A stretch of DNA of 50,000 nt from Terrabacter sp. Root181 (GTDB lineage Bacteria > Actinomycetota > Actinomycetes > Actinomycetales > Dermatophilaceae). The position numbers were made by a program, and so were the translations under genes. Under the pieces are notes generated by a model. That model made no database searches. It saw nothing but the letters and a program-made list of their open reading frames with translations, and was not told the origin of the DNA. The stretch is taken from positions 579,298 to 629,297 of the forward strand of contig NZ_LMHU01000005.1 of the NCBI RefSeq assembly GCF_001428505.1, written 5' to 3'. Positions 1,170 through 50,000 of the stretch are shown piece after piece. Every line of letters begins with the position of its first letter. Within the stretch, counting starts at the first letter, position 1.

Positions 1170-2341
1170 AGCGGCGGGTCGTGCACGTGGTCACCCGGTG
1201 CGTCGCCGGCGCCGGAGGCGTGGCGGTGCGGGGCGCCACCGCCCTGGAGCCGTCGCGCTACGACAGCGTCCTCGTCACCGGAACCAGGGATGGACCCCTG
1301 CTGGACCGCGCCCGAGCCGGCGGGGTGGAGGTCGTGGTCGTCCCCGAGCTCGTCTCCCCGATCAGCCCTCGGGCCGATGCCGTGGCGCTCGACCGGCTCA
1401 CCGACCTCGTGCGCACCCGCGAGGCCGACATCGTGCACACGCACAGTGCCAAGGCGGGGGCTCTGGGTCGGCTGGCGGCCCATCGGGCGGGCGTGCCCCT
1501 CATCGTCCACACGCTCCACGGATTCCCCTTCCACGAGTTCCAGAACCCCGTGTCGCGCGCCGCCTACATCGGCATCGAACGCCGGCTCTCGAGGATCACC
1601 GACGCCTACCTCGCGGTGGGCACCGGTGTGGCGGTCGAGGCGCTGCGGCGTGGACTGGCCCGGCCGGAGCAGATCCACACGATCGGCCCGGCGGTGGACG
1701 ACCCGAGTGTCGTCCTCACCCCGGAGACGCGGGCGCGGGCCCGGGAACGGCTGGGTCTCGGGCCCGACGTGCCCGTGGTCGGAACCGTCGGTCGACTCGA
1801 CTACCAGAAGGCTCCCGAGGTGATGCTGCGCGCGCTGAGCCGGCTCTCCACGCCGGCGACCCTCGTCTGGATCGGGGACGGCGAGCTGGCCGCGCGCGCT
1901 GCCCGTGAGGTCCAAGCGCTCGGGATCGGCGATCGGGTGCTGCTGCTCGGCAACCGCTCGGACGTCCCCGAGCTGCTGCCCGCCTTCGACGTCTTCGCGT
2001 TGGCCAGCCGTTACGAGGGGCTCCCGTGCGTCGTCGTCGAGGCCCAGCAGTGCGGCATACCCGTCGTCGCGACTGCCGTGAACGCCGTCCCGGACGTGGT
2101 CATCCCGGGTGACACGGGGCTGCTCGTCCCACCCATGCGCCCGGACCTGCTGGCCGCCGCCCTCGACCATGCCCTGACGCACCCGGTCGAGGCGCGCGAG
2201 TGGGCCACCCGCGCTCGTGAGCGCCTCGGCGCCCGATACGACCAGACCACGGCCGGGTCGGTGCTCGACCAGATCTACTCCGACGGGGCTGCGCGTCCGC
2301 GCGGTCGCCTCGTCGGGGCCGGAACGCGGGGGACGTCGTGA
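1166..2341 (+). CDS. GT4-family glycosyltransferase
   Basis: This 391-aa GT-B enzyme should transfer a sugar from a nucleotide donor to a lipid-linked glycan at the cytoplasmic membrane face. The N-terminal acceptor domain carries the HTHSAKAG block near residues 91-98 and a following HTLHGFPFH segment, typical of capsule and EPS GT4 enzymes. The C-terminal donor domain has VGRLDYQK and an E-x7-E motif (EGLPCVVVE, near residue 285) that binds the nucleotide sugar. Length is normal for the family. It begins in an ATGA overlap with the P-loop gene and ends in a GTGA overlap with the next ORF, so translational coupling is likely. Donor and acceptor cannot be read from sequence. Confidence 0.9.
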   Translation: MKRRVVHVVTRCVAGAGGVAVRGATALEPSRYDSVLVTGTRDGPLLDRARAGGVEVVVVPELVSPISPRADAVALDRLTDLVRTREADIVHTHSAKAGALGRLAAHRAGVPLIVHTLHGFPFHEFQNPVSRAAYIGIERRLSRITDAYLAVGTGVAVEALRRGLARPEQIHTIGPAVDDPSVVLTPETRARARERLGLGPDVPVVGTVGRLDYQKAPEVMLRALSRLSTPATLVWIGDGELAARAAREVQALGIGDRVLLLGNRSDVPELLPAFDVFALASRYEGLPCVVVEAQQCGIPVVATAVNAVPDVVIPGDTGLLVPPMRPDLLAAALDHALTHPVEAREWATRARERLGARYDQTTAGSVLDQIYSDGAARPRGRLVGAGTRGTS

Positions 2342-2775
2342 GCGTCCCCGATCCCGCCCACGTCCTGCTCTCCGCCGACACCCAGGTGGCATGGCCCACG
2401 CGGCCGGAGGACGTCGCGCGGGTCATGGTCCTCCCGCGCGGCGCGACGGTCGCCCTGGCGGATCGGCGGCCGGGTGGACGGGGCCGTCTCCGGCGGGCCG
2501 CCGGACGACTCGGTGTCCGGGTCGACGCGGAGTACATCGTGCTGCCGACCTGGGGGCATGCCACCTTCGTGGCGGCCGACGACCCCGCAACGGTGCGGTG
2601 GCTCCTGTCGACCTTCACCACGACTCCGCCGCGCGTGACGCGTGGCACGTACCTCATCGAGGCGCTGCAGCGCGCGACCCAGCGGGCCGGCGGCACGAGG
2701 GCGGGGGCGGTCGTCATCCTCCGGGTGACCGGTGCCCTCGTACCGGGTCGCATCCTCGTCGGGACCCGGCGATGA
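2338..2775 (+). CDS. hypothetical protein of the exopolysaccharide operon
   Basis: I do not recognise this 145-aa protein. It starts at a GTG overlapping the glycosyltransferase stop (GTGA) and ends in an ATGA overlap with the phosphotransferase, so its reading frame is well supported by coupling on both sides. It has no signal peptide or long membrane segment. The middle (about residues 55-75) contains an aromatic stretch, YIVLPTWGHATFVAADD, and the C-terminus is basic. The arrangement suggests a partner or accessory subunit of the APH-fold protein that follows, but this is only positional inference. Confidence 0.65.
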   Translation: MSVPDPAHVLLSADTQVAWPTRPEDVARVMVLPRGATVALADRRPGGRGRLRRAAGRLGVRVDAEYIVLPTWGHATFVAADDPATVRWLLSTFTTTPPRVTRGTYLIEALQRATQRAGGTRAGAVVILRVTGALVPGRILVGTRR

Positions 2776-3824
2776 CCACGACGTTGCTCGGGACGAGTCC
2801 CGGAGACCTGCTTCGCTCGACGCTGCGCGACCACCTCGGGACGGAGTCGCCGCCGCTCGTCGTGGTGGCGCTGTCGAGGGACGAGAACCCCAAGGCCATC
2901 ATCGTCGCGTTCTCCCCGACGGACTCGACACCGCGCCTCGTCGTCAAGGCGGCGCTCACCGAGGGGTCCGTCGCTGCCGTGCGCGCCGAGGCCGCAGCGC
3001 TCCGATCCGTTGAGGCGCTCGATCCCGGCATGGTCGGTGGCACCGTGCCGCGGCTCCTCGACGAGCGCCGGGACGAGACCGGAGCCCTGCTCGTCACGGA
3101 GGTCCTTCCGGGCGTGCCGATGTCCGTGGACTACCACCGGTGGCGGCACACGGCGAAGGCTGATGTCGTCCGGGAGGACTTCGCCGGTGCGATCTCGTGG
3201 CTGCGAGAGCTCGGACGCCTTCCGGTGGACCGGGTCCCCGGCCCCTCCGGGGACTGGCAGGCGCTCGCGACGCGCCTGCGCGAGCGGTGGCCGGCGGGCG
3301 AGGCCTCCTCGGACGTCGCCTCCGATGTCGCCCCCGATGTCGCTGAGAGGGTCACGGACCTCGACTCACGACTCCTGATGCCTCCGGGGTCGCCGCTGTC
3401 GGTGGTGCACGGCGACTTCTGGTGCGGCAACGTCCTGCGCACCGGTCGTCGCGTCACCGGGGTCGTGGACTGGGAGCATGCGGTCATCGGCGGCGACCCG
3501 GTCAGGGACCTGGCCCGTTTCGTCGTGAGCTACCTGCTCTACCTCGATCGGCACACTCGGCCGGGACGCGCGGTCCGTGGACACCCCGGCCTGACGGCGG
3601 GCGGCTGGGGGGAACCGATCCGGTATGCCGCCCACGGCGTCGGGTGGCTGCCATCACTCGTCGGGCAGGTCCTCTCCGAGGCGCTCGTCGCAACAGGGCG
3701 AGACGGTCACCTGTGGCGCGACGTGCTCGCGCTCGCCACGGTCGACGTCGCGGCGCACAGCGACCACGCCGACTTCGCGGTCCAGCACCTGCTGCTTGCC
3801 GAGGAGCTGCTGCGATGGCCGTGA
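2772..3824 (+). CDS. APH/choline-kinase-fold phosphotransferase
   Basis: This 350-aa protein has the aminoglycoside-phosphotransferase fold. It shows the Brenner catalytic loop HGDFWCGN at about residues 213-220 (catalytic Asp215) and a metal-binding aspartate in VVDWE (Asp233). The N-lobe has an ILE-like strand with a lysine (VVKAA) for ATP. The start is the ATG of an ATGA overlap at 2772; the frame stays open upstream but that stretch is antisense-like and lies inside the neighbouring genes. In an EPS operon this enzyme is more likely to phosphorylate a sugar, polyol or glycan end than an antibiotic. Substrate is unknown. Confidence 0.85.
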   Translation: MTTTLLGTSPGDLLRSTLRDHLGTESPPLVVVALSRDENPKAIIVAFSPTDSTPRLVVKAALTEGSVAAVRAEAAALRSVEALDPGMVGGTVPRLLDERRDETGALLVTEVLPGVPMSVDYHRWRHTAKADVVREDFAGAISWLRELGRLPVDRVPGPSGDWQALATRLRERWPAGEASSDVASDVAPDVAERVTDLDSRLLMPPGSPLSVVHGDFWCGNVLRTGRRVTGVVDWEHAVIGGDPVRDLARFVVSYLLYLDRHTRPGRAVRGHPGLTAGGWGEPIRYAAHGVGWLPSLVGQVLSEALVATGRDGHLWRDVLALATVDVAAHSDHADFAVQHLLLAEELLRWP

Positions 3825-5221: not shown

Positions 5222-6549
5222 ACCGGGGTCGGCCCGGCGTCCTGCGCCGTAGGGCGTTCCGGGGCACGGCGGCGCGATCCGTGGTGGGCAACATCGGCGC
5301 CCGGCTCGTGGCGCTGGTCTCGGTGGCGCTGGTGACCGTGCTCGTGGCCAGGTCGGGCGGCGCCGAGGACGTCGGGCTGCTCGCCCTGATGCGTGTCCTC
5401 CCAGGCCTTGTCGGCGTCGTCGCGGCATGTGGGTTGCCCGGGTCGATGGGGTTCTTCGTGGCGGGCCCCGAGGCGGCACACCCACGGCTGTGGCCGACGA
5501 TTCACGCCGCGCTGCTTGCCGGCGCTCTCGTCGGCACGGCCGTGTGGCTCGTGCTGACGCCCGTCATCCACGACCACCTCATGAGCTCGACCTCGTATGC
5601 CGTCGTCGCCGTCACCGGCATCACCGTGGCCACCCAGCTCCCTGTCGCTGTCGGGAAGGCATGCCTCCAGGCCCTCGACGACTCACGCGGTTCGAACATC
5701 GTCACCGCCGCGGAAGAGGCCGCCTTCGTACCCGTCTACCTGCTCCTCTGGGTCTGGGGAGTGCGCGGTGGATGGCTGCTGCTCCTGTCCCTGCTGGTCG
5801 CAGACGTCGTCGTCGCGGCACACGCCTGGGTGCGCATCGGTCGCAGGGTGCACCTGCGAGGAGCCGCGCTCATCGGGCGCCCGGACCTGGCGCTCGGCCG
5901 GCGGATGGCTGCCTTCGGGCTCCGCAGCCAGGTGGGCGGCATCCTCAACCTGCTCAACCTGCGTCTCGACGTCGTCGTCCTCGGGGCGATGGCCGGCCCT
6001 GCCCAGGTCGGTGTCTACGTCGTGGCCTCGAAGTACGCGGAGCTGTTGCGCCTGCCGGGTCTGGCGCTGACGTGGGTCACGTATCCGAACTTCTCTCGCC
6101 GAGCCGCATCGGTCGCGTCGGCTGGCTCTGTGGCTCCGGCGGCTCGGGCGCCAGCCCCTCCGGCGCGGCGGCCGTTCCCGACCGTCGGCCAGCTCCTCGC
6201 GTTCGGCGTGCTCGCCGGGGTGCTCCTGGCCGCCAGTGCCTTCGTGGTGCTGCCGGCCGTCTACGGGGAGCAGTTCAGTGCCGCCGCGTTGCCGGCGGCC
6301 GTCATCTCGCTCGGCCTCGTGGCCGAGCCCGCGGCAGGAGTCGCGTCCGGGTTCCTGCTCGGGTCGGGTCGACCTGGGCTCAACTCCGTCATCCTCGGCG
6401 GCGGCTTCGCGGTCACGCTGGTGCTGGACCTTCTGCTCATCCCGCGCCACGGCTCGTTGGGTGCGGCCTGGGCAAGCGCCGTGGCCTATCTGACGACGGA
6501 CGTGCTCCTCATCCGGGCCTGGAGACGACTTTCACAGGAGCAGCCATGA
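5218..6549 (+). CDS. Wzx-like polysaccharide flippase
   Basis: This 443-aa polytopic protein resembles the MOP-superfamily polysaccharide flippases. Hydrophobic segments run throughout, beginning with the typical N-terminal block (ARSVVGNIGARLVALVSVAL) and ending with a helix pair around residues 400-435. A polar Ala/Pro-rich cytoplasmic loop near residues 300-320 separates the two bundles. It would move undecaprenyl-linked repeat units across the membrane before the Wzy-like neighbour polymerises them. Both junctions are ATGA overlaps (5218 and 6546). Confidence 0.88.
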   Translation: MNRGRPGVLRRRAFRGTAARSVVGNIGARLVALVSVALVTVLVARSGGAEDVGLLALMRVLPGLVGVVAACGLPGSMGFFVAGPEAAHPRLWPTIHAALLAGALVGTAVWLVLTPVIHDHLMSSTSYAVVAVTGITVATQLPVAVGKACLQALDDSRGSNIVTAAEEAAFVPVYLLLWVWGVRGGWLLLLSLLVADVVVAAHAWVRIGRRVHLRGAALIGRPDLALGRRMAAFGLRSQVGGILNLLNLRLDVVVLGAMAGPAQVGVYVVASKYAELLRLPGLALTWVTYPNFSRRAASVASAGSVAPAARAPAPPARRPFPTVGQLLAFGVLAGVLLAASAFVVLPAVYGEQFSAAALPAAVISLGLVAEPAAGVASGFLLGSGRPGLNSVILGGGFAVTLVLDLLLIPRHGSLGAAWASAVAYLTTDVLLIRAWRRLSQEQP

Positions 6550-7577: not shown

Positions 7578-7580
7578 CTT

Positions 7581-8252: not shown

Positions 8253-9891
8253 CGAGGGGATCGCAGCGGGCGTTGAGACACTCGCCCGTCGCGAGGTCGA
8301 AGTCGAAGTTGTGACCCAGACACCGCAGCACACCGTCGCGGATGACCGCGCCGTGCGTGAGGTCCTCTCCTGCATGCGGGCAGTACCTGCTGACCTGCCA
8401 CCCGTGGTCGCCGTCGGTGAGGACGACGCTGTCGTTCGGGTTCCGCTCGGCCTCGAACGACTCCACGGCCGCGAGGGCGCCGGCATCCGCGTGCTTGAGC
8501 AACCCGACCAGGTAGTCGTTGTAGCGGTCCGGATCGCGCCACGCGGAGATGCGGAGGGAGAGGAACAGGTCCTCCCAGCGCACCCGGCCCATCAGCACCG
8601 CGTCGAGCCAGCGGGCCTCGACCGTGATCTGGTAGCCGGGGTGCGACGTGCTGCCGGTCAGGTCGACCCGGCACTCCGACGGTCCGAGCTCGACGTCCCA
8701 CGTCCCGCCGTCGTCGCCCGTGACGACGAAACGGACCGTCATCCCGATGCGGTGCAGGAAGTAGTCAGAGAGCGTCCCGAGCTCGGTGAAGTGGTCGGCG
8801 AAGCGTTGCGAGAGCCCACTGCCCCGGGGCGGATCGGGGTTGGCGGCATACACCGCGGCCACCTCGTGCGCCCGCCGCTCCGCATACTCACGCAGGTAGT
8901 CCCGCAGGGGGTCGGGCAGCCCCGCGTCGAGCGTGCCGTCGAGCGTGCCGTCGTGAGCGCCGCCCGCGAGGCTGAAACCGTCCCAGCGCGGGTCTCGGTC
9001 GACCACGCCGGTGCCCACGTCGATCCGGTCGCCGGGCATGAGCGGCTCGACGGCCATTCCGGGGAGCCTCGACCGGAGGAAGGCGGCGGCCTGGGCGGTG
9101 TCGGGGAAGATGCCGGGCGGTGCCATGCGCTCGTTGTGGTGGACGAGCACGGGATCGAGGAAGCAGGGCGGCCCGGCATACGGCATCACGGTCCGGGGCG
9201 GTGCCGCCCGCAGGAGCCGACTGACGGCCTTGAACTTGCCCATGCGCTTGTCCGCGCTGATCGAGGCGACGACCTCGGGTGGGTACTCGTAGCAGATGGG
9301 GTGCCACGACGCGCCCGACATCTGCACGCCCATGAGGTCGAGGGGGCGTCCAGCCTCCTGGGCGGCCCGCCGCAGCTGCGCCACCGAGAGGCGCGCGTCG
9401 TTCGTGTGGAGGATCGCGTGGCCGGCCGCGACGACGAGGATCGCCGAGTCGTGGCACATCGGCGACAGCTCCTGGATGACGGTGACCCAGTCCCCGCGGT
9501 CGTTGAGCGCCAGCCGCTCCCAGCTGCGGAGCTCGATGAGGACGTTGCGGATGCCGGCCGCGCGGATGCGTTGGACCATCTCCGGCGCGGGATAGCGAGG
9601 GACGACGATGCGCACACGCTCGGGAAGCTCCCGGAGGAGGTCGAGATCGAGGTGGTCGAGGTGCTCGTGCGAGATGGCCACCCAGTCGGCGTTCAGCACA
9701 TCCGCTCGTCGCAGGTGCGAGTTGTCGGGGAACGGGAACCATGAGCCGAGGAAGGCCCCTCCGGGCGACATCCACGGATCACACAGCATGGTGAGGTGGG
9801 GAGCGTCGATCCGCAGCCCAGCGTGCCCGAGAGAAGTGACAACAGGTGCGACCACGCGGCCATCGTCACGGACGGCGGGTGCAGCGGCCAC
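8215..9891 (-). CDS. metallo-beta-lactamase / SCP2-like / Rieske fusion protein
   Basis: This 558-aa protein joins three modules. Residues about 15-290 form a metallo-beta-lactamase fold with HEHLDH (His75, His77, Asp79, His80). Residues about 370-480 resemble a small SCP2-like lipid-binding fold. The C-terminus carries a Rieske [2Fe-2S] site: Cys504-x-His506 and Cys524-x-x-His527. The metallo-lactamase plus Rieske pairing recalls CMP-N-acetylneuraminate hydroxylase, but there the Rieske domain is N-terminal, so order is reversed here. The GTG start at 9891 is preceded by an AGGGGA ribosome binding site; later in-frame starts lack one. It is probably a redox monooxygenase or hydrolase of unknown substrate. 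It lies convergent to the EPS operon and overlaps its last gene. Confidence 0.82.
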   Translation of the reverse strand: MAAAPAVRDDGRVVAPVVTSLGHAGLRIDAPHLTMLCDPWMSPGGAFLGSWFPFPDNSHLRRADVLNADWVAISHEHLDHLDLDLLRELPERVRIVVPRYPAPEMVQRIRAAGIRNVLIELRSWERLALNDRGDWVTVIQELSPMCHDSAILVVAAGHAILHTNDARLSVAQLRRAAQEAGRPLDLMGVQMSGASWHPICYEYPPEVVASISADKRMGKFKAVSRLLRAAPPRTVMPYAGPPCFLDPVLVHHNERMAPPGIFPDTAQAAAFLRSRLPGMAVEPLMPGDRIDVGTGVVDRDPRWDGFSLAGGAHDGTLDGTLDAGLPDPLRDYLREYAERRAHEVAAVYAANPDPPRGSGLSQRFADHFTELGTLSDYFLHRIGMTVRFVVTGDDGGTWDVELGPSECRVDLTGSTSHPGYQITVEARWLDAVLMGRVRWEDLFLSLRISAWRDPDRYNDYLVGLLKHADAGALAAVESFEAERNPNDSVVLTDGDHGWQVSRYCPHAGEDLTHGAVIRDGVLRCLGHNFDFDLATGECLNARCDPLVTRPLGSPAVVP

Positions 9892-14410: not shown

Positions 14411-14455
14411 CGGCATACCTCCGGGGGTGGCGACGGCCACGGCGGACATCCCTTG

Positions 14456-16251: not shown

Positions 16252-16287
16252 GGCGTATGCCGTCGGGCCGGCCGGACGGCATACGCC
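16252..16287. terminator. perfect 13-bp hairpin built from CGGCATAC motifs
   Basis: GGCGTATGCCGTC (16252-16264) pairs perfectly with GACGGCATACGCC (16275-16287) across a 10-nt loop. Each arm contains the over-represented octamer (GTATGCCG and CGGCATAC). It lies 85 bp after the acyl-CoA synthetase stop and should act as its terminator. The remaining 16288-16438 shows no other strong element apart from the leader of the next gene. Confidence 0.75.
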
Positions 16288-18439: not shown

Positions 18440-18479
18440 GTCCGGGGCACACGGCATACGCCCTCGGTCGGCCCCGGAC
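18440..18479. terminator. 9-bp hairpin between acidic repeat gene and argS
   Basis: GTCCGGGGC (18440-18448) pairs with GCCCCGGAC (18471-18479). The 22-nt loop contains one CGGCATAC octamer. It lies about 100 bp after the repeat-protein stop and 46 bp before the argS start, so it should end the upstream transcript. Confidence 0.55.
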
Positions 18480-26144: not shown

Positions 26145-26182
26145 CAGAGGGCGTATGCCGCCCGCTTCCCGGTGCGCCTCGC

Positions 26183-37745: not shown

Positions 37746-37763
37746 TGGTCCGGGACGTTGCGT

Positions 37764-37800
37764 ATCGGATCCTGCTCCGTTTTCGGGAGCAGCTTCCGAG
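37764..37800. repeat. second copy of 37-bp hairpin repeat
   Basis: This copy is identical to 37697-37733 over all 37 bp and starts 67 bp after it. It keeps the CTGCTCC/GGAGCAG stem but lacks the outer stem of the first copy. It lies 54 bp before the XRE regulator start. Confidence 0.85.
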
Positions 37801-42431: not shown

Positions 42432-42462
42432 CCCGGCGGCATACGCCAACGGTGGGGTGGGC

Positions 42463-43101: not shown

Positions 43102-43108
43102 GGGTGGA

Positions 43109-43114: not shown

Positions 43115-43118
43115 GCGC

Positions 43119-43625
43119 GTGGCGAAGAGATCCGAGACCCCCGGCAAGAGCTCCGTCCCGACACCGGAGACGTATGCCGCGTGGGTCGGCCAGGCGCTCG
43201 ACCTCGCGGCGGCGACCGTGCGCTCGCAGGACGTGCCCGTCGGGGCGCTCGTCGTCGACCCCGAGGGAGGCGTGGTCGGCCGCGGGCGCAACGTGCGCGA
43301 GGAGCGGGGCGACCCGACGGGGCACGCCGAGGTGGTCGCGCTGCGCGAGGCCGCGCAGGCGGTGGGCTCGTGGCGGCTGGACGGCTGCACGCTCGTGGTC
43401 ACGCTCGAACCGTGCGTCATGTGCGCGGGTGCGGCGATGGCGGCGCGGGTCGAACGGGTCGTGTTCGGCGCCTGGGACCCGAAGGCGGGGGCGTGCGGAT
43501 CGGTCTGGGACCTGACGCGGGACCCCCTCGCGACGCACATCGTGGACGTCGTCGGTGGGGTGCGGGCGGAGGAGTCGGCGGCCCTGCTGGTCGATTTCTT
43601 CGAGGGCCGGAGGCTCGGCGACTGA
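43119..43625 (+). CDS. tadA: tRNA adenosine(34) deaminase
   Basis: This 168-aa deaminase converts A34 to inosine in tRNA-Arg(ACG). The zinc site is complete: His69-Ala-Glu71 in the first motif and Pro98-Cys99-x-x-Cys102 in the second. The RNGREE-type loop reads [16 protein letters not shown]. The N-terminus has about 15 extra residues compared with typical TadA. The GTG at 43119 is the only plausible start. Its 3' end (43587-43618) is duplicated at 45133-45164, just in front of tRNA-Ser. Confidence 0.95.
43587..43618. repeat. tadA-tail direct repeat, left copy
   Basis: These 32 bp are the last codons of tadA. They match 45133-45164 at 31 of 32 positions; the single difference is C at 43601 against G at 45147. 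Together the copies flank the sigma2-like gene. Confidence 0.85.
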
Positions 43626-43658
43626 GACCAGCGGTGCTCGTAGAGCGGCCGCGTGTCG

Positions 43659-45020
43659 TCAGCGTCCCGGTGGCCGCTTCTTGAGCGCCGTCACGGTCAT
43701 GCCGGGTGGACCGGCGACCGGCAGCGAGGTGTACGACGAGGCGCTCCAGCCGTCAGCCGGGTTGGCCCAGTGAATCGTCCACGAGCGTCCCCGGTCGGTC
43801 GAGACGGCAACTTGGGCGAAGCCCCACTGGCTCGAGAACCAGACCGCGACCGACCCGTCCTGCCCGTTCGCGGCGTACGGAAGGGCACCGTCCTCGCTCG
43901 GGGACTTGACCGTGACGTCGACGGTGGCGAACGTCTCGTCGTCCTGCTGGATGAACACGCGCGCGGACCCGCTGGAGTTGTCGAGGTGCTGAGTGCCCAC
44001 CCAGCCCTTGGTCGTGTTCGAGTCCCACTGGACGTCGCCCGGGAGATCGAGTGCGTGCACCGTCCCGTGGAGGTCGACGAGGCAGGGCCCCGAGGCGCAG
44101 GTGCTGAACTGCTGCCCCGGTCGGGCTCGAGCACCGGTCTTGACCTCGAACGGCTGTGGTTCCTTCATGGTCGGTGAGATCAAGGCGTAGTCGTCGCCGG
44201 CCCACGCGGCGATGATGGCGAAGTTGCCGGCGAAGGCTGGCCTCACGACCTGCTCGCTCTGCAGCAGGTGGGTCAGGCGGTGGCCCTTGCCGTCCACCAC
44301 CTCGACGGCCAGCGCTGCGTTCTCCTGGTCACACGTGGGGGAGCTGCCGGAACCGGGGCGGCACCGTTGCCAGACGATCGCTCGCCGGGACGCGACCTGT
44401 GGTGACGTCACCACATAAGCCTGCCGGGCGTCGGGGTGGCCGACGACCGCTTGAGGGGTCACGGGCGGCCATGGCTCCGGTGCCGACGTCGAGGGTGACG
44501 GGATGGCGTGGGTCGGGATGAGGGGCGGTGAGCTGCGGACCCGCGACGGGGTGGGGGAGGTCGTCGGTAGCGCGCTCGTCGGCGCCCACGGTGAGACGGA
44601 CGTGGCGGCGAACAGGGCGACCACGGCAAGCACGGTGCCGGCCGCGCCCAGACCCACTCGGCGCGCCATGTGCCGTCGGTGCGCGCGCGCGGCCCGGCTC
44701 AGGCTGCCCGAGAGCGAGGGCCGCTCGAAGCTTGCCGCGGCCGGGAGACCCCGACTGCCGTCGAGGTCGTCGCGGCGGAAGGAACGCCGCACGACCTGGT
44801 TGCGGGCGGTCACGCGCAGCCAGTCGAGCGGGCGCCCGATCTCGGCGAAGTCGGGCAGTGCGGCGGCCCGGCGGAAGGCCTCGTCGACCGCGGCCTCGGC
44901 GGCCCCCGCGCTCCCGCAGATCGCGGTGAGCTCGCCGACGAGCTCCGCGTGGTACCGGTCGAAGGCCTCCTGCACGGCGACCGGCGCCGGGCTCGGCATC
45001 AGTGGCGAGGCGTCAGCCAT
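43659..45020 (-). CDS. sigma-region-2-like / transmembrane / beta-propeller-like protein
   Basis: This 453-aa protein joins three parts. Residues about 15-85 look like region 2 of an ECF sigma factor (FDRYHAELVGELTAIC, AAVDEAFRRAAALPDF, WLRVTARNQVVRRSFRR). No region 4 follows. One membrane helix (about 122-143) leads into a Pro/Thr/Ser-rich stalk. The C-terminal 270 residues are beta-rich, with Trp repeats and one Asp-box-like STDRGRSWTIHW, as in extracellular propellers. Cysteines in WQRCRPGS/PTCDQ and STCASGPCLV may form disulfides. It may be a membrane-tethered, degenerate sigma-like sensor. AAGG precedes the ATG at 45020. The gene lies between two copies of the tadA tail. Confidence 0.7.
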   Translation of the reverse strand: MADASPLMPSPAPVAVQEAFDRYHAELVGELTAICGSAGAAEAAVDEAFRRAAALPDFAEIGRPLDWLRVTARNQVVRRSFRRDDLDGSRGLPAAASFERPSLSGSLSRAARAHRRHMARRVGLGAAGTVLAVVALFAATSVSPWAPTSALPTTSPTPSRVRSSPPLIPTHAIPSPSTSAPEPWPPVTPQAVVGHPDARQAYVVTSPQVASRRAIVWQRCRPGSGSSPTCDQENAALAVEVVDGKGHRLTHLLQSEQVVRPAFAGNFAIIAAWAGDDYALISPTMKEPQPFEVKTGARARPGQQFSTCASGPCLVDLHGTVHALDLPGDVQWDSNTTKGWVGTQHLDNSSGSARVFIQQDDETFATVDVTVKSPSEDGALPYAANGQDGSVAVWFSSQWGFAQVAVSTDRGRSWTIHWANPADGWSASSYTSLPVAGPPGMTVTALKKRPPGR

Positions 45021-45132
45021 GGTTTCCAGCCTTCTGCGGTCTCCGTCGTGATTTCCGTGGCCCTCTGATCGTGACCCGTCGGCGGGGTCTCGCGTGGGGG
45101 ATTGGCTATGTCCGGGCTGCTCGGGGACGCCA

Positions 45133-45164
45133 CTGGTCGATTTCTTGGAGGGCCGGAGGCTCGG
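45133..45164. repeat. tadA-tail direct repeat, right copy
   Basis: This copy of the tadA 3' end lies 15 bp before tRNA-Ser and contains TTGGAG at 45145-45150, where tadA itself has TTCGAG. The one-base change produces a better -35 box for the tRNA promoter. Confidence 0.85.
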
Positions 45165-45171
45165 GTAAGGT
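45145..45171 (+). promoter_or_regulatory. probable tRNA-Ser promoter
   Basis: TTGGAG (45145-45150) and TAAGGT (45166-45171) lie 15 bp apart, and the -10 box ends 8 nt before the mature tRNA 5' end at 45180. The -35 box lies within the duplicated tadA tail. Spacing is slightly short for a housekeeping promoter. Confidence 0.45.
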
Positions 45172-45179
45172 CTCCTCTC

Positions 45180-45269
45180 GGTGGCGTGTCCGAGCGGCCT
45201 AAGGAGCACGCCTCGAAAGCGTGTGTGGGGGTAACTCCACCGTGGGTTCAAATCCCACCGCCACCGCCA
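45180..45269 (+). tRNA. tRNA-Ser(CGA)
   Basis: The 90-nt gene folds as a class II tRNA. The acceptor stem is GGTGGCG with CGCCACC, discriminator G and encoded CCA. The anticodon arm is CACGC-CTCGAAA-GCGTG, giving anticodon CGA, which reads UCG serine codons. There is a long variable arm (GTGGGGG...ACTCCAC) and a T arm GTGGG-TTCAAAT-CCCAC. The element that begins just downstream carries a tyrosine integrase pointing towards it, so this tRNA 3' end is the likely attachment site. Confidence 0.96.
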
Positions 45270-45278
45270 GTCACCTGC

Positions 45279-45320
45279 AGAAACGCCGGTCCGAGCCTCA
45301 CGGCCCGGACCGGCGTTTCT
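45279..45320. terminator. 15-bp hairpin after tRNA-Ser
   Basis: AGAAACGCCGGTCCG (45279-45293) pairs perfectly with CGGACCGGCGTTTCT (45306-45320), with a further GCC/GGC inside the loop. The right arm ends in a T-rich run. It should terminate the tRNA transcript and also the convergent integrase gene, whose stop lies at 45343. Confidence 0.85.
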
Positions 45321-45342
45321 CGTGGTGGTCTCAGTTGTGGTC

Positions 45343-46611
45343 TCATTCGAGGTCCGCCGGGCTCTCGAGCCCCGGCCACAGGAGCTCGTCGACCTGACGT
45401 GCGACGTCGTCCCGGATCGGTGCGACAACGTGGGCGTAGCGCTGGGCCATGGCGGGGTTGGACCAGCCCATGATGCTCATCATCGTGGTTTGGCTCACCC
45501 CGAGCATGAGCAGCACGGTCGCTGCGGTGTGGCGAGCGTCGTGAAGTCGTCCATCACGGATGCCTGCCCGCCGGAGCAGGACCTTCCAGTGAGACCAGTC
45601 GGTGCGGGGGTTGATGGGGTCGCCCGTCTCGGTGGTGAACACCCACCCGTCCTCATGCCATGCGTTGCCGGCGTGGACGTGCTCTTCCTGTTGGACGTGC
45701 AAGTGGTGCTGGAGAAGGGTGACGAGCTGCGGTGGTAAACCGACCTGCCGGTTGCCGGCGCGGGACTTCGTCGTGTCTGTCTCCGGGTTGATGCGGACAC
45801 GCTCTGGGCAGTGGCCGGCCTGCGCCTTGCCGCACGTGCCTCCGCAGCCGTGGGCGTACTTGGGGCGCAGGAGTGAGCGGCGAGCGGTCAGGACCCCGTC
45901 GTCGAGGTCGATGTCGGTCCACTTGAGGCCAAGTACCTCGCCCTGGCGCAGGCCAAGGGCGAGGGCCATGACCCAGCGGACGCCGTTGCGTGACTCAGCG
46001 GCCGCGACGAACAGTCTGCGGATCTCATCAACGGTGAACGGCTCGATGTCGGGTGGGACGACCCGGGGTGCTCGGGCGATGGTGGCCGGATTCCGAGGTA
46101 GATGGCCACGGCGGACGGCTTCATTGAGCGCGGCTCGGATGGTGCGGTGAACCTGGTGGACGGTTGCGGGCTTCGTCTCGGCGCTGAACTTGGTGGGCTG
46201 GGTCAGGATCCGGCGATAGAGGGATTCGAGGTGCTCGGGCTCGAGGAGCTCGAGACGGTGTGCGCCTATCCCGGGGATGAGGTGGTGACGTACGGCGACG
46301 CGGTACGCCGACAGCGTCGTGGCTTTGACGTGCCCGGTCACGACGTTGTCGAGCCAGTGCGTGAGCCAACTCTCAACCGTCCACCGGGTGCCGGCTGTCG
46401 GAACCGTGCGCTGCTCACGGTGCTTCTCGAGCCTACGCACCTTCTCGGTCACGCCAGCCTTCGTCGCGGACCGGACGTGGCGACGGTCAGGTCTTCCATC
46501 GTCGCGAATGCCGACGGTCACACGTCCATGCCATGATCCGTCGCTGCCCTTGTAGATAGACGAGCGGCCATTTGGCTGTCGTGACATTGACGAGGTCATC
46601 GTCAATGTCAT
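45343..46611 (-). CDS. tyrosine-type site-specific integrase
   Basis: This 422-aa phage-type recombinase has an N-terminal arm-binding region (SSIYKGSDGSWHGRVTVG), a SAM-like core-binding domain (WLTHWLDNVV...TTLSAYRVAVRHHLIPGIG), and the catalytic domain. Active-site residues are visible: Arg222 (LALGLRQGEVLGLKW), His357 and Arg360 (LHDARHTAAT), and Tyr392 (AQRYAHV). A cysteine-containing insertion (HGCGGTCGKAQAGHCPERV, near residue 265) is seen in many actinobacterial integrases. The ATG at 46611 overlaps the excisionase stop (ATGA). Two further in-frame ATGs (46599, 46587) follow within a perfect inverted repeat. Its target is probably the adjacent tRNA-Ser gene. Confidence 0.95.
   Translation of the reverse strand: MTLTMTSSMSRQPNGRSSIYKGSDGSWHGRVTVGIRDDGRPDRRHVRSATKAGVTEKVRRLEKHREQRTVPTAGTRWTVESWLTHWLDNVVTGHVKATTLSAYRVAVRHHLIPGIGAHRLELLEPEHLESLYRRILTQPTKFSAETKPATVHQVHRTIRAALNEAVRRGHLPRNPATIARAPRVVPPDIEPFTVDEIRRLFVAAAESRNGVRWVMALALGLRQGEVLGLKWTDIDLDDGVLTARRSLLRPKYAHGCGGTCGKAQAGHCPERVRINPETDTTKSRAGNRQVGLPPQLVTLLQHHLHVQQEEHVHAGNAWHEDGWVFTTETGDPINPRTDWSHWKVLLRRAGIRDGRLHDARHTAATVLLMLGVSQTTMMSIMGWSNPAMAQRYAHVVAPIRDDVARQVDELLWPGLESPADLE
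46582..46610. promoter_or_regulatory. perfect 12-bp inverted repeat over the integrase start
   Basis: TGACATTGACGA (46582-46593) and TCGTCAATGTCA (46599-46610) are perfect inverted copies separated by 5 bp. They lie across the first codons of the integrase and the last codons of the excisionase. This could be an operator for an integrase/excisionase-type protein, or an mRNA hairpin limiting integrase translation. Confidence 0.75.
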
Positions 46612-46832
46612 CCGATGCCGGAGTCGCCACTGTCGCCGGGCGAAGAAGCAAGCGCGCGAAGGCGGGCCACGAAGTCGTCGAGGGCGTCGCACGGGATGCG
46701 ACGCAGGCGACCGATGGCGATGGACTCGATGTCGCCGCTGCGCACGAGCGCGTAGACAAGGGTGCGCCCGACGCCGAGCCTCTCTGCGGCTTCTTCCACC
46801 GTGTAGACGATGCGCTCCGTCTGAACGGACAT
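46608..46832 (-). CDS. excisionase-type helix-turn-helix protein
   Basis: This 74-aa protein is a MerR/AlpA-like small DNA-binding protein: YTVEEAAERLGVGRTLVYALVRSGDIESIAIGRLRRIP is the standard helix-turn-helix of excisionases (split here by description, residues about 8-45). The C-terminus ends in Ser-Gly-Asp repeats. AGGAG lies 5 nt before the ATG at 46832; upstream in-frame codons are unlikely to be used. It precedes the integrase in an ATGA overlap, so it probably controls recombination direction and may bind the inverted repeat at its own 3' end. Confidence 0.85.
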   Translation of the reverse strand: MSVQTERIVYTVEEAAERLGVGRTLVYALVRSGDIESIAIGRLRRIPCDALDDFVARLRALASSPGDSGDSGIG

Positions 46833-47128
46833 GGTGACTCCTGAACGTTGGCGTGCTGATAGAACCAAGACCGATCCGAGCGGGGCACCACGCGTTTCGT
46901 GTGCATCCTGATCTATGTGACGCGCCATCCCGACCATCGGTTGATGAGCGGGCCGGGCTCTGTCCAGGAGAGGGTGCCTCTCTGCTCAACACAGCCCGCG
47001 GATGGAGGAGCAGAAAGCGTTGTCGTCCGCATGCGTCGCCTCCCACTCGCGACGAAGTAGCCAGCTGCACATTGCGTGTGCTTCGATGCTGCCGCAGGGA
47101 TTCATCAAACAGTTGGAGAACCCAAGGC
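46833..47128. promoter_or_regulatory. divergent control region of excisionase and Lsr2 genes
   Basis: This 296-bp gap holds no convincing gene. An imperfect long hairpin spans 46954-46998: CGGGCT and TGT pair with ACA and AGCCCG, enclosing GGAGAGG-GTG-CCTCTCT. It lies about 130 nt before the Lsr2 start and may be a leader structure or attenuator. On the minus side, TATCAG near 46854 could be part of the excisionase promoter. Confidence 0.4.
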
Positions 47129-47458
47129 ATGGCACAGCGAATTCAGACGATTCTGGACGATGACATCGACGGTGGCCCCGCCGATTCCACGATTCAGTTC
47201 AGCTATCAAGGCACTCAGTACGAGATCGACCTCTCCAAGGAGAACGAGCAGAGGTTGATCGCAGCGCTCGAGCCCTTCACGAGCAGAGCCCGCAGGATCG
47301 GCGGCGGCCGCCGATCCTCGACCAAGGCGCCAGCAGGGAAGACGGACACGAACCAGCTCCAGGCTATGCGCGACTGGGCACGCTCCAACGGCCTCAAAGT
47401 CTCTGATCGGGGCCGGGTCAGCCAAGAAGTGCAGGACGCATACAACGCCTCACGCTGA
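47129..47458 (+). CDS. Lsr2-family nucleoid-associated protein
   Basis: This 109-aa protein matches Lsr2 throughout. It has the N-terminal oligomerisation domain (TILDDDIDGGPADSTIQFSYQG, YEIDLSKENEQRLIAALEPF), a basic linker with GGGRRSS, and the C-terminal AT-hook-like DNA-binding domain (MRDWARSNGLKVSDRGRVSQEVQDAY) with the RGR core. Length is close to the chromosomal protein. Lsr2 silences AT-rich foreign DNA. An Lsr2 copy on an integrative element may silence the element itself or mix with the host protein. GGAGAA lies 11 nt before the ATG and a very strong terminator follows. Confidence 0.92.
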   Translation: MAQRIQTILDDDIDGGPADSTIQFSYQGTQYEIDLSKENEQRLIAALEPFTSRARRIGGGRRSSTKAPAGKTDTNQLQAMRDWARSNGLKVSDRGRVSQEVQDAYNASR

Positions 47459-47467
47459 GACCAGCGA

Positions 47468-47505
47468 CGAAGGTCGCCCGCCCCGGCAAGGGCGGGCGAC
47501 CTTCG
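47468..47505 (+). terminator. 16-bp terminator of the Lsr2 gene
   Basis: CGAAGGTCGCCCGCCC (47468-47483) pairs perfectly with GGGCGGGCGACCTTCG (47490-47505) over a 6-nt loop. It starts 9 bp after the Lsr2 stop and is followed by a moderately T-rich stretch. Confidence 0.88.
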
Positions 47506-47817
47506 CGTTCGTCGTGCTTTCAGTGTTTCTCGCTCCCGAGGGATTAGTCCGTGCAGCGGGCCCGCTGTCGCACGTAAGACGCAAGGCCCAGACCCGACTG
47601 GTGCGCACAGCCCGCCAAGGCGGAGTTGCGTGGTCGGAGGTTGCGCCACCCGTCGGACTCAAGCGTCAGGCAGCGTGGGAGGGATGGCGCGACTTGGACG
47701 ACCTCACTTCACACGTGAGCAACCAGACCGCCGACTGTAACTCCGCGGCCTCTGCGGAGTTTCCACAACCAATCTTCCCCGAGCTGAGGAGTCGCTTCGC
47801 GGCGGTGTGACGCTGTC
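47506..47817. other. gap with no convincing gene
   Basis: After the Lsr2 terminator there are about 310 bp without a supported gene. A 98-codon plus-strand frame (47514-47810) is open, but its composition is not gene-like and no ribosome binding site precedes it. A small hairpin, AACTCCGC/GCGGAGTT, lies at 47739-47761. Base composition is less GC-rich than in the flanking chromosome. Confidence 0.5.
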
Positions 47818-47848
47818 CCGTGGGCGCCTTGATGCGAGGGGCCCACGG
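47818..47848 (-). terminator. hairpin after the DUF732-like lipoprotein gene
   Basis: CCGTGGGC (47818-47825) pairs with GCCCACGG (47841-47848), with a CC/GG pair inside. It lies 20 bp beyond the stop of the minus-strand lipoprotein gene. Confidence 0.6.
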
Positions 47849-47868
47849 TTTACCGAGGTCGACGTTAC

Positions 47869-48333
47869 CTATCCTCCGACGAGTGACTTGAACTTGGGAC
47901 ACTCCGAAAGAATCGCGACCACGGCCACCTTGGCGGCGACGTCACCCCTGAGGTGAAAGGCGTCCTTCATCCAAGGGCCTACGGTGGCCGGATTACCCGA
48001 CTCGATACGGTCACAGATGCCCCGGGCCAACTCGTCCATCTTGGTGCTGTCATCCATGCCGGCCGCCTTGGCGGCGGCGTAGAACGCGACTTTTCCGCCC
48101 AACTTCTCGCCCACGGCCTCCGCGCCGTTCGAGCTGGAAGACGTCGCAGTTGTCATGTCGGGGGTAGGTGAGCTGGCGGAGGACGAAGCTGGAACTCTAG
48201 ACGGTGTCGGCCTCGCGCTCGGAGCATCAGCGGTAGCTACCTGCGTGGGCGCGGCTGTGGACGCCGTGACCGAATTGGACGAGCAGCCGGTAGCGGCGGC
48301 GACGACGAGAGCGGCGACCACAAGATGTTTCAT
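47869..48333 (-). CDS. DUF732-like lipoprotein
   Basis: This 154-aa protein has a lipoprotein signal (MKHLVVAALVVAAATGCSS, lipidated Cys17), a long Ser/Thr/Pro/Ala linker (about 20-70), and a C-terminal helical domain resembling DUF732. In that domain LARGICDRIESG and VVAILSECPKFKSLV supply the two cysteines that form the family's disulfide. It should be anchored outside the membrane. The ATG at 48333 is chosen from the signal peptide; an in-frame ATG at 48351 lies within a TATGAC -10-like box, so a nearly leaderless start is likely. Function is unknown; it lies in the integrative element. Confidence 0.75.
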   Translation of the reverse strand: MKHLVVAALVVAAATGCSSNSVTASTAAPTQVATADAPSARPTPSRVPASSSASSPTPDMTTATSSSSNGAEAVGEKLGGKVAFYAAAKAAGMDDSTKMDELARGICDRIESGNPATVGPWMKDAFHLRGDVAAKVAVVAILSECPKFKSLVGG

Positions 48334-48733
48334 GCTCGAAGTGTCATACATTGCACTGCTTGTCCGAAGGCGGCAGGCCGTTGTCCTTGCCCTTTCGAGG
48401 AATCCAGGTGCGCCAGCTTGGCGCCCCGGCGGGCTGCATGCTGGCGGCGGCGAAATCCCGGAATCGCTCGACCGCATCGACCCAACCTGGCCGCTTGCGC
48501 ATCACGCAAGGACGCCGGCCGCAGAGGCCGGACTGGGTCGACCATGCTTGCCGCCTGTCACGCGTACGCGTGCGCCGGCAGGCGCCGGTAAGACGCAGGT
48601 ATCGATCTTGCCGAGCGAGGGCGCGGCCAAGTGAAGACATACCTCTCAGCGCGGCGCTCGAATGTACTAATTGGTTTGAGACTTGCCTCTTTGAAACGGA
48701 CGCAAGGATTAGCAAATAAGGTGCGTAAGGGAG
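48334..48733. other. structured non-coding region near the right end of the element
   Basis: I find no convincing gene in these 400 bp, although frames stay open on both strands. Three inverted repeats cluster: CTTGCG-CATCA-CGCAAG (48494-48510), CCGGCC-GCAGA-GGCCGG (48515-48531) and the palindrome CACGCGTACGCGTG (48559-48572). The last 100 bp (from about 48650) are distinctly AT-rich. The region could hold the right attachment site or a decayed gene. Confidence 0.45.
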
Positions 48734-50000
48734 TTATGCGGATTCATTTGGCCTCGTCGTGACATTGTCGCGATCAGTGCGCTCTGCAGCATGGCTCGAG
48801 TGCGGGATGCTGGCCTGCAGGCGTGTGCCACCTTCGCGCGGGCTCGTCACGACCAACCGGCCACCCATGGTCTCGATCCGGTCGGTGAGGCCGAGCAGGC
48901 CTGAGCCGGACGGATCCGCCCCACCGACCCCGTCATCCTCGACGAGGGCGACGATCAGGTGCGGTCCAGTGGTGATCACCACCTGACACCGGCTCGCGCG
49001 GGCGTGCTTCGCCACGTTGGTCACCGCCTCGGCGCAGAAGAAGAGCAGCGCCCCTTCGAGCGCGTCGGGAAGCCGTCCCGCCTCGACTCGTACATCGACC
49101 GGGAAGGGAAAGTGCCCGGCCATGTCACGGACGGCCGCGTCGAGGCCACCCTCGACGAGGGCCGCGGGGCGGACTCCCTGGACGAACCTGGTCAGGTCCT
49201 CCTGCGCCCGCACGACCTCCGCACGCACCAACGTGAGGTTCCGGTCACCCGAGAGGCCCGCAGTCGCGACATGGTCCAGGAGGTCGGCGACGTGGGCGAG
49301 CCGTCGTTGGGCGCCGCCGGCGAGCTGGTCGGCGATCCGTGCCCGCTCACCGCCGACGGCTTCGACGATGCGGCGCCTCGACTCGGTGAGGTCGCCGACA
49401 CGGGAGCGGATGTCGGCGAGCATCTGCGCGTTGGTCATCGCGAGCCTGGCCGCCGTCGCCACGCCGCTCACCAGCCGTGGGTCCTCGAGCAGGGCCCGGT
49501 CGTGGAGCAGGACGGCGACCGGCTGGCCTTCGTCGTCGATATGGGTGGCCGTGCGGTCACCATCCTGCGCCGGCAGTTCGATGGGCTCACCGCGGTCATC
49601 GACGTATGCCGTCCTTTCCGGAATCCAATAGCCGACGGTCAGGCCGGGGTCGCCCAGGGCTCGCTGCAGTCGGCCGGTCAGCCCGCTCGTGTCGGACGTC
49701 GCACCGAGGTCGGCGACGAGGTCACTCAGTGTCGACTCGGTCCAGCGACCCCACCGCAGGTCGGCTGCCAGCACGACAGCGGCGCCCCCGACGACCGCGT
49801 CGTATGCCAGCAGGACGGGTTGGTCGATGTTCCAGGCCAGCAGCTGGTTGAGAGCGCTCGTCACGAGAACGGCGGAGAACCCGAGGGCTGCCCACAGGGC
49901 CGGGCGTCCCGCCTTGCGGGCGGGGCCCGTGGTGCGCACGAAGACGTCGATCGCCGCTGCGGCGACCAGGAGCGCGAGTGCCAGGGTGAGCGCGGCAGCG
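48734..50000 (-). CDS. NarL-type sensor histidine kinase-like protein, 5' end beyond window
   Basis: The frame is open to the window edge, where it encodes another membrane helix (ALTLALALLVAAAAIDVF) before the possible GTG at 49939, so the gene continues beyond 50000. Membrane helices are followed by a GAF-like linker, a HisKA_3-type dimerisation helix and an HATPase domain with EAVTNVAKHA (N box) and GVGGADPSGSGLLGL (G box). The usual phosphoacceptor motif ELHDG reads QLAGG here: ERARIADQLAGGAQRRL. The histidine is Ala, so the protein may be a pseudokinase or act through a partner. The response regulator is not in the window. Confidence 0.85.
   Translation of the reverse strand, partial: AAALTLALALLVAAAAIDVFVRTTGPARKAGRPALWAALGFSAVLVTSALNQLLAWNIDQPVLLAYDAVVGGAAVVLAADLRWGRWTESTLSDLVADLGATSDTSGLTGRLQRALGDPGLTVGYWIPERTAYVDDRGEPIELPAQDGDRTATHIDDEGQPVAVLLHDRALLEDPRLVSGVATAARLAMTNAQMLADIRSRVGDLTESRRRIVEAVGGERARIADQLAGGAQRRLAHVADLLDHVATAGLSGDRNLTLVRAEVVRAQEDLTRFVQGVRPAALVEGGLDAAVRDMAGHFPFPVDVRVEAGRLPDALEGALLFFCAEAVTNVAKHARASRCQVVITTGPHLIVALVEDDGVGGADPSGSGLLGLTDRIETMGGRLVVTSPREGGTRLQASIPHSSHAAERTDRDNVTTRPNESA

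Follow-up and report, generated by a model that had tools for sequence, protein, structure and literature searches.

Why does one octamer, CGGCATAC, recur so often along a stretch of an actinobacterial chromosome? In the window, that is the whole 50,000-nt stretch of Terrabacter sp. Root181 DNA analysed here, the first-pass annotation had located 25 copies of the heptamer GGCATAC or GTATGCC, 23 of them extending to the octamer, and every position proved exact. These 23 octamers compare with 0.72 expected from dinucleotide shuffles, none of 100 shuffles reaching 23, and with 1.26 expected under a third-order Markov model. The over-representation therefore holds, on a chance expectation below the value of about 2 initially put forward. 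With the reversed word as yardstick, the 4.94 Mb genome contains 2,231 copies of CGGCATAC versus 250, an excess of about 9-fold, so that the genome count is not close to expectation either. We propose, with a probability of roughly 0.75, that CGGCATAC is a putative DNA uptake sequence with dialects, read in Flp-pilus-dependent transformation; both its role in uptake and the machine involved are inferred from genome comparisons.

The copies found in the window are given below. Gene context follows our own gene calls, and conservation is the number of alignable congeners carrying the exact word at the orthologous position.

2053..2060, plus strand: CGGCATAC, coding, in gene 1166-2341 (plus strand); congeners not alignable
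3623..3630, minus strand: CGGCATAC, coding, in gene 2772-3824 (plus strand); congeners not alignable
5595..5602, minus strand: CGGCATAC, coding; congeners not alignable
8844..8851, plus strand: CGGCATAC, coding; congeners not alignable
9174..9181, plus strand: CGGCATAC, coding; congeners not alignable
11087..11094, plus strand: CGGCATAC, coding; exact in 3/4
14411..14418, plus strand: CGGCATAC, intergenic, immediately 3' of a stop codon; exact in 2/2
16252..16287: inverted CGGCATAC pair with a 13-bp stem (16255-16262 minus, 16277-16284 plus), in the interval separating gene 14523-16166 from gene 16439-18337; exact in 5/5 (minus-strand copy) and 3/5 (plus-strand copy)
18452..18459, plus strand: CGGCATAC, intergenic; exact in 6/6
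23963..23970, plus strand: CGGCATAC, coding; exact in 0/1
25492..25499, plus strand: CGGCATAC, coding; exact in 2/7
26153..26160, minus strand: CGGCATAC, intergenic; exact in 4/5
26263..26270, plus strand: CGGCATAC, coding; exact in 5/7
30945..30952, minus strand: CGGCATAC, coding; exact in 3/5
34257..34263, plus strand: heptamer GGCATAC only, without the 5' C
34844..34851, minus strand: CGGCATAC, coding; exact in 7/7
35429..35436, minus strand: CGGCATAC, coding; exact in 5/7
35912..35919, minus strand: CGGCATAC, coding; exact in 2/7
36292..36299, plus strand: CGGCATAC, coding; exact in 5/7
41459..41466, minus strand: CGGCATAC, coding; exact in 7/7
42437..42444, plus strand: CGGCATAC, intergenic; exact in 7/7
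43172..43179, minus strand: CGGCATAC, coding; exact in 7/7
49604..49611, minus strand: CGGCATAC, coding; congeners not alignable
49802..49808, minus strand: heptamer GGCATAC only

Our gene calls agree with the six intergenic copies announced at first pass (14411, 16255, 16277, 18452, 26153 and 42437). At orthologous sites, the exact word was present in 73 of 96 site-species cells, whereas 8-mers with the same AT content predict 48.

An origin of CGGCATAC in the use of codons, codon pairs or amino acids, or in a family of dispersed repeats, has next to no probability: the 156 coding copies of a 450 kb sample do fall mostly in two frames, Tyr-Ala (93 read ..G TAT GCC G.., in agreement with the use of TAT remarked on earlier) and Ala-Tyr (45 read.CG GCA TAC), but synonymous-codon shuffles of this sample yield 15.3 coding copies (maximum 27 in 50 shuffles) where the real sequence has 153, tenfold more, the word is 1.7 times denser between genes than inside them (60 in 83 kb versus 156 in 367 kb, p=8e-4), and its flanks have at most one or two bases in common.

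The distribution of the word with respect to foreign DNA was then considered. A gap between 43.2 and 49.6 kb, including a presumed integrative element, had been noted in the window:

43180..49603, no strand: word-free stretch, holding integrase-like and excisionase-like ORFs
45343-46452, minus strand: tyrosine-integrase-like ORF, named by eye from sequence
46608-46832, minus strand: excisionase-like ORF, named by eye from sequence

The gap exists, yet it is not significant when the window is considered on its own, as 1.1 such gaps are expected. A Pfam scan of two window ORFs returned no family. Elsewhere, avoidance is significant in the foreign DNA examined: a foreign-looking stretch of 28.4 kb and GC 0.62 (C1:312141-340562) is devoid of CGGCATAC, and three elements lying inside tadA hold 3 copies where 19.7 are expected.

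As for hairpins, the perfect stem attributed to the two copies at 16252-16287 was recovered, with 13 bp, the 61-nt stretch folding at -41.7 kcal/mol (z -3.4). The copy at 18452 does lie within a hairpin, as had been described, but this fold is no better than those of shuffled sequences (z -0.9 and -0.3 for the two strands). Inverted pairs in the minus-plus order, 7-50 bp apart, number six versus 1.3 expected, and they are few, six among 233 heptamers. Inverted pairs of the neisserial DNA uptake sequence (DUS) are putative terminators, according to excerpts of PMC7371117.

The analysis was extended to 186 Dermatophilaceae genomes, of which 114 have more than 60 copies of CGGCATAC per Mb (median 435, maximum 1,356 per Mb). 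Other members of the family use CGGCGTAC or CGGCATCC, which are one-base variants of CGGCATAC, or the unrelated CGAAGGGG. There are 4,185 copies of CGGCGTAC in G129 and 1,463 in G126, and two congeners of the latter, G033 and G127, use CGGCATAC instead. Against synonymous shuffles of samples, CGGCATCC was found 36 times versus 5.6 (G024) and 42 versus 6.9 (G034), and CGAAGGGG 37 times versus 5.0 in g67, 35 versus 8.5 in Janibacter and 14 versus 1.8 in Marihabitans; CGGCGTAC reached only 12 versus 6.6 in the G126 sample. Among the one-mismatch neighbours of CGGCATAC in G000, the two dialect words lead in excess (53 versus 34, and 96 versus 62). Two other observations concern such neighbours: TGGCATAC lies above expectation (6 versus 1.3) and CGGCAGAC below (22 versus 35).

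The case for CGGCATCC in g2 is weak: G009 has 382 copies per Mb, compared to 93-241 in 37 other genomes, and is exceeded in its ratio to the reversed control by two CGGCATAC carriers, G011 and G019; 40 kb of g2 contain 13 copies versus 5.3. A strong word was sought in g7, g9, g10, g11 (the last three as samples), G065 and G150, and none was found. Outside the family, a surplus of CGGCGTAC/GGCGTACG suspected in L230, L221 and L264 was discarded, since these words do not rank at the top in either L230 or L264 relative to a Markov background; in L221 the surplus is weak (CGGCGTA, 14 versus 4.7 on the same background). A literature search for the octamer gave no genomic repeat word among the matches listed, and no earlier report of such an actinobacterial uptake-like word was found in the literature searched.

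Might such a word organise the chromosome, or promote recombination, in the manner of KOPS, AIMS, Chi, parS or a nucleoid-protein site? Recombination and segregation had been among the first suggestions, and CGGCATAC, being densely spaced on the chromosome and seldom interrupted by a large gap, would suit them. KOPS, AIMS and Chi are polar words, however, and the near-equal split of CGGCATAC between strands, both genome-wide (1096/1135) and within each of eight 50 kb blocks, therefore speaks against words of this type. Moreover, the near-complete replacement of the word inside one genus (G126 versus G033 and G127) makes an essential chromosome function unlikely. We consider this explanation very improbable.

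Hardly more probable, in our opinion, is a link to methylation, likewise listed as an alternative at first pass. HIP1 is an abundant cyanobacterial word linked to methylation; an orphan methyltransferase or a repair bias might similarly keep the octamer abundant, dialects tracking enzyme specificity. Abundance on both strands would be expected, a changing target recognition domain would also fit dialect switching, and the deficit of CGGCAGAC is what a mutation-fed word might show. By inspection, however, CGGCATAC is asymmetric, not palindromic as HIP1-type words are. Source words are not depleted across the board, either, the G and C variants of positions 5 and 7 occurring more often than expected, and methylation predicts neither the scarcity in foreign elements nor the hairpin pairs.

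Which machine might then read the word? Class-B tadA, one particular ATPase gene of the Tad (Flp-pilus) type, is present, whole or in pieces, in 168/186 genomes, the operon order being tadA-B-C-FlpL-TadE-TadF-TadG. In a test by genus counting only CGGCATAC or CGGCATCC, one or the other is enriched in 37 of the 47 genera with class-B tadA, compared to 0/6 without it (p=3.5e-4, uncorrected for phylogeny). No carrier-only protein emerged from the class-B operon among 36 loci, and the presence of ComEC was rejected as a means of separating carriers from non-carriers, given that comEC was found in 35/35 genomes.

Class-B tadA is not sufficient for a word. It occurs without a clear one in g9, g10, g11 (samples), g65 and g68 (only CGGCATAC and CGGCATCC counted), and also in Arsenicicoccus piscis (G065) and Ornithinicoccus halotolerans (G150). 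Neither is it strictly necessary: four of the 18 genomes without a class-B match exceed 60 copies per Mb, namely the 100% complete G154 together with G138, G158 and G205, which are incomplete, and where class-B tadA remnants were found, G160 keeps CGGCATAC and G133, with only a remnant present, keeps CGAAGGGG. These cases may stem from recent loss or from missing sequence.

Class-B tadA is split on the same contig in 16/186 genomes, Terrabacter sp. Root181 included, at about 7 sites. Three inserts were examined, and serine recombinases are present in two of them; a Pfam search with three ORFs of the Root181 insert gave no match. In 13 further genomes, the splits were probably made by elements as well. 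Analysis of 42 genomes had led to the idea that split tadA is confined to word-positive genomes, which is wrong, 4/16 same-contig splits being found without CGGCATAC. As a control, no class-A TadA among the matches listed spans fewer than 327 of the 390 profile positions, and best scores for class A are weak in 8/163 genomes (at least 90% complete); TadA outside class B is in two pieces on two contigs in G012. Hand counts gave 24/151 for class B versus 8/160 for class A (p=0.002). G075, scored as intact for class-B tadA, has only residues 3-322.

The explanation that best survives besides ours keeps the uptake word and takes the machine to be something other than the class-B Tad pilus, word and locus both tracking a third factor such as lineage. 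It would account for class-B genomes without a word and for carriers without intact class B (G154, G160, G133), and the genus test, which ignores phylogeny, leaves room for it. Because a search next to tadC revealed no pilin genes in G126 or G034, both of which use dialect words, we gave this explanation more weight, at a slight cost to our own. Against it stand the lack of CGGCATAC or CGGCATCC enrichment in all six genera without class B, the fact that the splits seen in 16 genomes affect precisely class-B tadA, and the rarity of type IVa pilins (PF07963, N_methyl type), absent from 41/42 genomes. On balance we hold it to be unlikely, if clearly less so than a methylation-linked word.

An uptake signal, the first function named in the first-pass annotation, is supported by the asymmetry of the word, its dialects, its scarcity in elements, some terminator-like hairpins and its co-occurrence with tad. 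Under this reading, cells undergoing natural transformation would favour double-stranded DNA bearing CGGCATAC. Imported fragments would recombine into the chromosome, alleles holding the word would spread, and CGGCATAC would thereby accumulate on both strands, in genes and terminators, reaching densities in the hundreds per Mb. Elements using other transfer routes would be without it. Shifts of lineages to CGGCATCC, CGGCGTAC or CGAAGGGG would be expected if the reading protein altered its specificity. By analogy with Micrococcus luteus, the machine would be a Flp/Tad pilus encoded by the class-B tad operon, together with ComEA/ComEC; our guess for the word reader is a surface TadE/TadF/TadG-type pilin. 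Somewhat less confidently, we favour a broader scenario, in which uptake sequences arose independently in Gram-positive actinobacteria and a Flp/Tad competence pilus reads them, lineages change dialect or even adopt an unrelated word, and mobile elements repeatedly hit the pilus ATPase gene tadA, at about 7 sites, stopping transformation from curing them.

To our knowledge, uptake words are known only from two Gram-negative families. If the proposal is true, a second, separate origin of DNA 'self' labels would have occurred in soil actinobacteria. It has long been asked how uptake words come about and for what reason a species should have them. With another phylum, another pilus and four words, Dermatophilaceae would offer a comparative test bed for molecular-drive, kin-recognition and curing ideas, for which congeners with different words, apparent recent losers and insert-split tadA would also be useful. 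The proposal also predicts natural transformability, hence a simple genetic tool, where tadA is intact, in Terrabacter, Knoellia, Pedococcus, Ornithinimicrobium, Janibacter and relatives.

Compared to known systems, CGGCATAC recalls the USS of Pasteurellaceae, a genome-wide self word tied to transformation, and differs from it in sequence, host phylum and pilus type. The resemblance to the DUS is closer. The DUS of Neisseriaceae has single-base dialects between relatives and a CTG core (Frye et al. 2013, PMC3630211); as here, it is a short asymmetric word with hundreds to thousands of copies, coding and intergenic. The actinobacterial words belong to another phylum and are unrelated in sequence, CTG being absent from all four on either strand (by inspection); CGAAGGGG shares nothing with the other three, and their uptake role is putative. 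Unlike the DUS-ComP pair, carriers are without type IVa pilins such as ComP, PF07963 being found in 1/42 genomes. The splitting of tadA by inserts is similar to the inactivation of the competence genes comYC, comFA, comK, comEC and comM by mobile elements (Croucher et al. 2016, PMC4774983, a text in which 'tad' does not occur), with the difference that the target is here tadA, at about 7 sites. Finally, in M. luteus, which belongs to a different family, both tad clusters are required for transformation, and the available parts of the report (PMC4322843) mention no uptake word or DUS. Dermatophilaceae have in common with it two tad clusters, comEA/comEC and no T4P genes, and, judged by eye from gene order and from the TadE/TadF/Flp N-termini in PMC6370729, class B resembles M. 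luteus tad-1 and class A resembles tad-2.

The octamer CGGCATAC occurs 23 times in the window (12 plus, 11 minus) and the heptamer GGCATAC 25 times, at the positions listed in the first-pass annotation; dinucleotide shuffles gave 0.72 and 1.66, respectively. The over-representation claimed there holds genome-wide: the 4.94 Mb of Terrabacter sp. Root181 (12 contigs) contain 1,096 copies in forward and 1,135 in reverse orientation, or roughly one every 2.2 kb, versus 250 for the reversed word. Strands are near equal, also within each of eight 50 kb blocks.

A 450 kb sample with 221 copies, made up of the window and 400 kb of one contig, was split with a purpose-written gene caller, which placed 156 copies in coding sequence, 60 between genes and 5 at edges. 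Most coding copies read Tyr-Ala (93) or Ala-Tyr (45). An origin as a coding by-product is nevertheless very unlikely, as synonymous-codon shuffles within genes gave a mean of 15.3 copies (maximum 27 in 50) versus 153 observed. Density between genes is 1.7 times the coding density (p=8e-4). These two results agree with the earlier proposal that the DNA word, rather than the protein, seems selected.

Conservation was measured by aligning the window to its syntenic regions in seven congeners, which are 82-91% identical where they aligned (18-27 kb). Of 96 site-species cells, leaving out those that would not align, 73 hold the exact octamer, and 48 are expected from 8-mers of equal AT content. The intergenic copies at 18452 and 42437 are exact in 6/6 and 7/7 congeners, and those at 25492 and 35912 in only 2/7 each. 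The window also holds an intergenic stretch of ~103 bp (37697-37800) belonging to an unnamed intergenic repeat family that recurs within the genus.

Copies of the 37697-37800 stretch (G, genome; C, contig; G000, own genome)
G007:C11 near 400 kb, three overlapping matches
G000:C5:282724
G005:C1 near 314 kb

The wider consensus around the 221 copies, aCGGCATACgcc, is weak, with A at -1 in 56% and G directly after in 65%. Other sample sets showed this A too (46-64%, or 31% in G015), except the Flexivirga/Metallococcus loci, where it was not enriched. Since flanks share no likeness past one or two bases, CGGCATAC is a word rather than a dispersed repeat unit. Fourteen pairs lie less than 80 bp apart in the sample, several of them, by eye, hairpins of the form GTATGCCG...CGGCATAC; minus-plus pairs 7-50 bp apart number six versus 1.3 expected, a modest though real excess. 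The longest word-free stretch of the sample, C1:312141-340562 (28.4 kb, GC 0.62), holds an ORF that by eye resembles a transposase; the gaps that follow in length, of 15, 12 and 11 kb, are not significant. Avoidance of a foreign island had also been suggested: the 6.4 kb gap in the window is there, without reaching significance.

The family, Dermatophilaceae in the wide sense (Intrasporangiaceae and kin), was placed by a named scan that kept the best 80 of 537 relatives. CGGCATAC exceeds 60 copies per Mb in 114 of the 186 family genomes examined (53 genera), with a median of 435 and a maximum of 1,356 per Mb; family strand sums are 104,560 and 104,171. No comparable excess was found in 22 genomes from 19 other families of the order, where the top count was 167 (control 184; G054).

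Many genomes without CGGCATAC carry a different word, such as CGGCGTAC.

Genome counts of CGGCGTAC
G129 4,185 (reversed control 207); G130 3,903; G060 2,618; G069 2,529
G059 2,366; G031 2,216; G128 2,111
Lowest listed: G126 1,463; G032 1,359; G068 1,125

In the own genome CGGCGTAC occurs 651 times (control 220). G126 is noteworthy because it uses CGGCGTAC (19 copies of CGGCATAC) and its congeners G033 and G127 use CGGCATAC (1,062 and 3,681). Compared with synonymous shuffles, CGGCGTAC numbers 36 vs 11.8 in G031, 13 vs 3.0 in G129 and just 12 vs 6.6 in G126; GGCGTACG numbers 63 vs 17.6 in G032, and CGGCATCC 36 vs 5.6 in G024 and 42 vs 6.9 in G034, its case in genus g2 being weak. A fourth word, CGAAGGGG(G), unrelated to CGGCATAC, CGGCATCC and CGGCGTAC, is found in Janibacter (coding copies 35 vs 8.5), Marihabitans (14 vs 1.8) and genus g67 (37 vs 5.0); CGAAGGGG shows no coding excess in the own genome (9 vs 8.7). 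It is over-represented in coding and intergenic DNA of the following loci, some copies being hairpins by eye.

Loci with CGAAGGGG(G)
L106, L107: G131
L198, L202, L215: Janibacter
L205: Marihabitans
L265: G133
L266: G132

With CGGCATAC masked in the own genome, the two dialect words show the greatest excess of all its one-mismatch neighbours (53 vs 34, 96 vs 62). Five CGGCATAC and seven CGGCGTAC lie within 21 kb in Terrabacter sp. Root85 (L206), possibly a mixed-dialect genome; G180 and G183 also have both. Arsenicicoccus piscis (L096-L098, L208), devoid of the four words, has CGTAGACC (36 vs 8.6) and GGGCTACC (16 vs 1.9), possibly a further word. Other repeated words were seen in 40 kb of G129 (L104/L105; AAACAAGT 13 times, 0.2 expected, and ACAAGTAG 14 times, 0.5 expected), perhaps a repeat array, and in G031:C1:1-40000 (L061/L062), where words of the CAGTTCGA and CCGTGACC types are highly repetitive, at 37 and 39 copies, and probably belong to a gene for a tandem-repeat protein.

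As to a candidate machine, ComEC was found in 35/35 genomes searched, ComEA-like ORFs upstream in some (one non-carrier among them), and N_methyl pilins in 1/42. TadA is of several classes: class A lies in an SsdA-like/TadA/TadB/TadC/Flp/TadE cluster and class B in tadA-B-C-FlpL-TadE-TadF-TadG, genes being identified from position and by eye, one ORF having a Pfam TadE match and another a TadE/G-like match below cut-off. Among the matches listed for the own tad locus, the best named is T. aerolatus (83.9% over 7.9 kb), in line with Terrabacter as the probable own genus.

A profile search of the 186 genomes found no class-B tadA in 18, and genera g7, g14, g15, g50, g55 and g64 lack it in all members examined. 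None of these six exceeds 60/Mb for CGGCATAC or 200/Mb for CGGCGTAC; class B occurs in 47 genera, of which 33 have CGGCATAC (p=0.0017) and 37 have either word (p=3.5e-4), both values uncorrected for phylogeny. Four of the 18 genomes are exceptions, above 60/Mb for CGGCATAC: G154, plus G138, G158 and G205, which are incomplete. If only genomes with a completeness of 90% or more are counted (163), class B is missing from 12, of which one (G154) exceeds 60/Mb. G160 and G133 retain CGGCATAC and CGAAGGGG, respectively, with remnants of class B left. In two loci no pilin genes were found adjoining tadC.

Loci without pilin genes after tadC
L125, G126:C1:302000-320000 (CGGCGTAC genome)
L137, G034:C1:2423000-2441000 (CGGCATCC genome)

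In G126 small foreign-looking ORFs come after tadC, so that its class-B operon may also have been hit by insertion.

Class-B tadA is split into two or three pieces, which share contig and strand and lie 3.9 to 74 kb apart, in 16/186 genomes of 9 genera (12 with CGGCATAC, four without).

Breakpoints in class-B TadA, near residue (genomes; G183 entered twice, having two inserts in one gene)
81-91 (3)
106 (1)
141 (1)
165 (1)
205 (5)
232 (3)
299 (3)

Class-B tadA is probably a hotspot for insertion, at about seven different sites; this range suggests repeated, independent hits. In 11 further genomes pieces lie on different contigs or a single piece is found; two have frameshifts and one a remnant. 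In the control matches listed, class-A tadA seems less often impaired. The own genome is among the 16: on C8, 10.0 kb separate residues 2-307 from residues 292-407 by profile (3-297 and 293-408 by tblastn).

Inserts read
G000:C8:349419-359449 (L182/L121), three ORFs searched, no Pfam match
G006:C6, Resolvase/Recombinase serine recombinase (Pfam)
G015:C43, Resolvase/Recombinase serine recombinase (Pfam)

The three contain 3 copies of CGGCATAC versus 19.7 expected, 12.4 of these in G015 (p=4e-6).

Of the hallmarks of an uptake word, those open to computation are seen here, except that for the inverted pairs a terminator role is only possible. We found no uptake word in Actinobacteria in the parts of the open-licence literature consulted. 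According to excerpts of Croucher et al. (PMC4774983), elements in comYC, comFA, comK, comEC and comM block transformation, which otherwise cures them; the same logic fits the tadA inserts, which would block a transformation that would otherwise remove them. In Micrococcus luteus, which is without T4P genes, transformation depends on each of its two tad clusters (PMC4322843), and its TadE/TadF/Flp N-termini, as given in PMC6370729, resemble by eye class B and class A, respectively. Unlike the neisserial DUS, the CGGCATAC system falls outside the ComP/type IVa system; as a putative uptake word, it would be DUS-like in its working.
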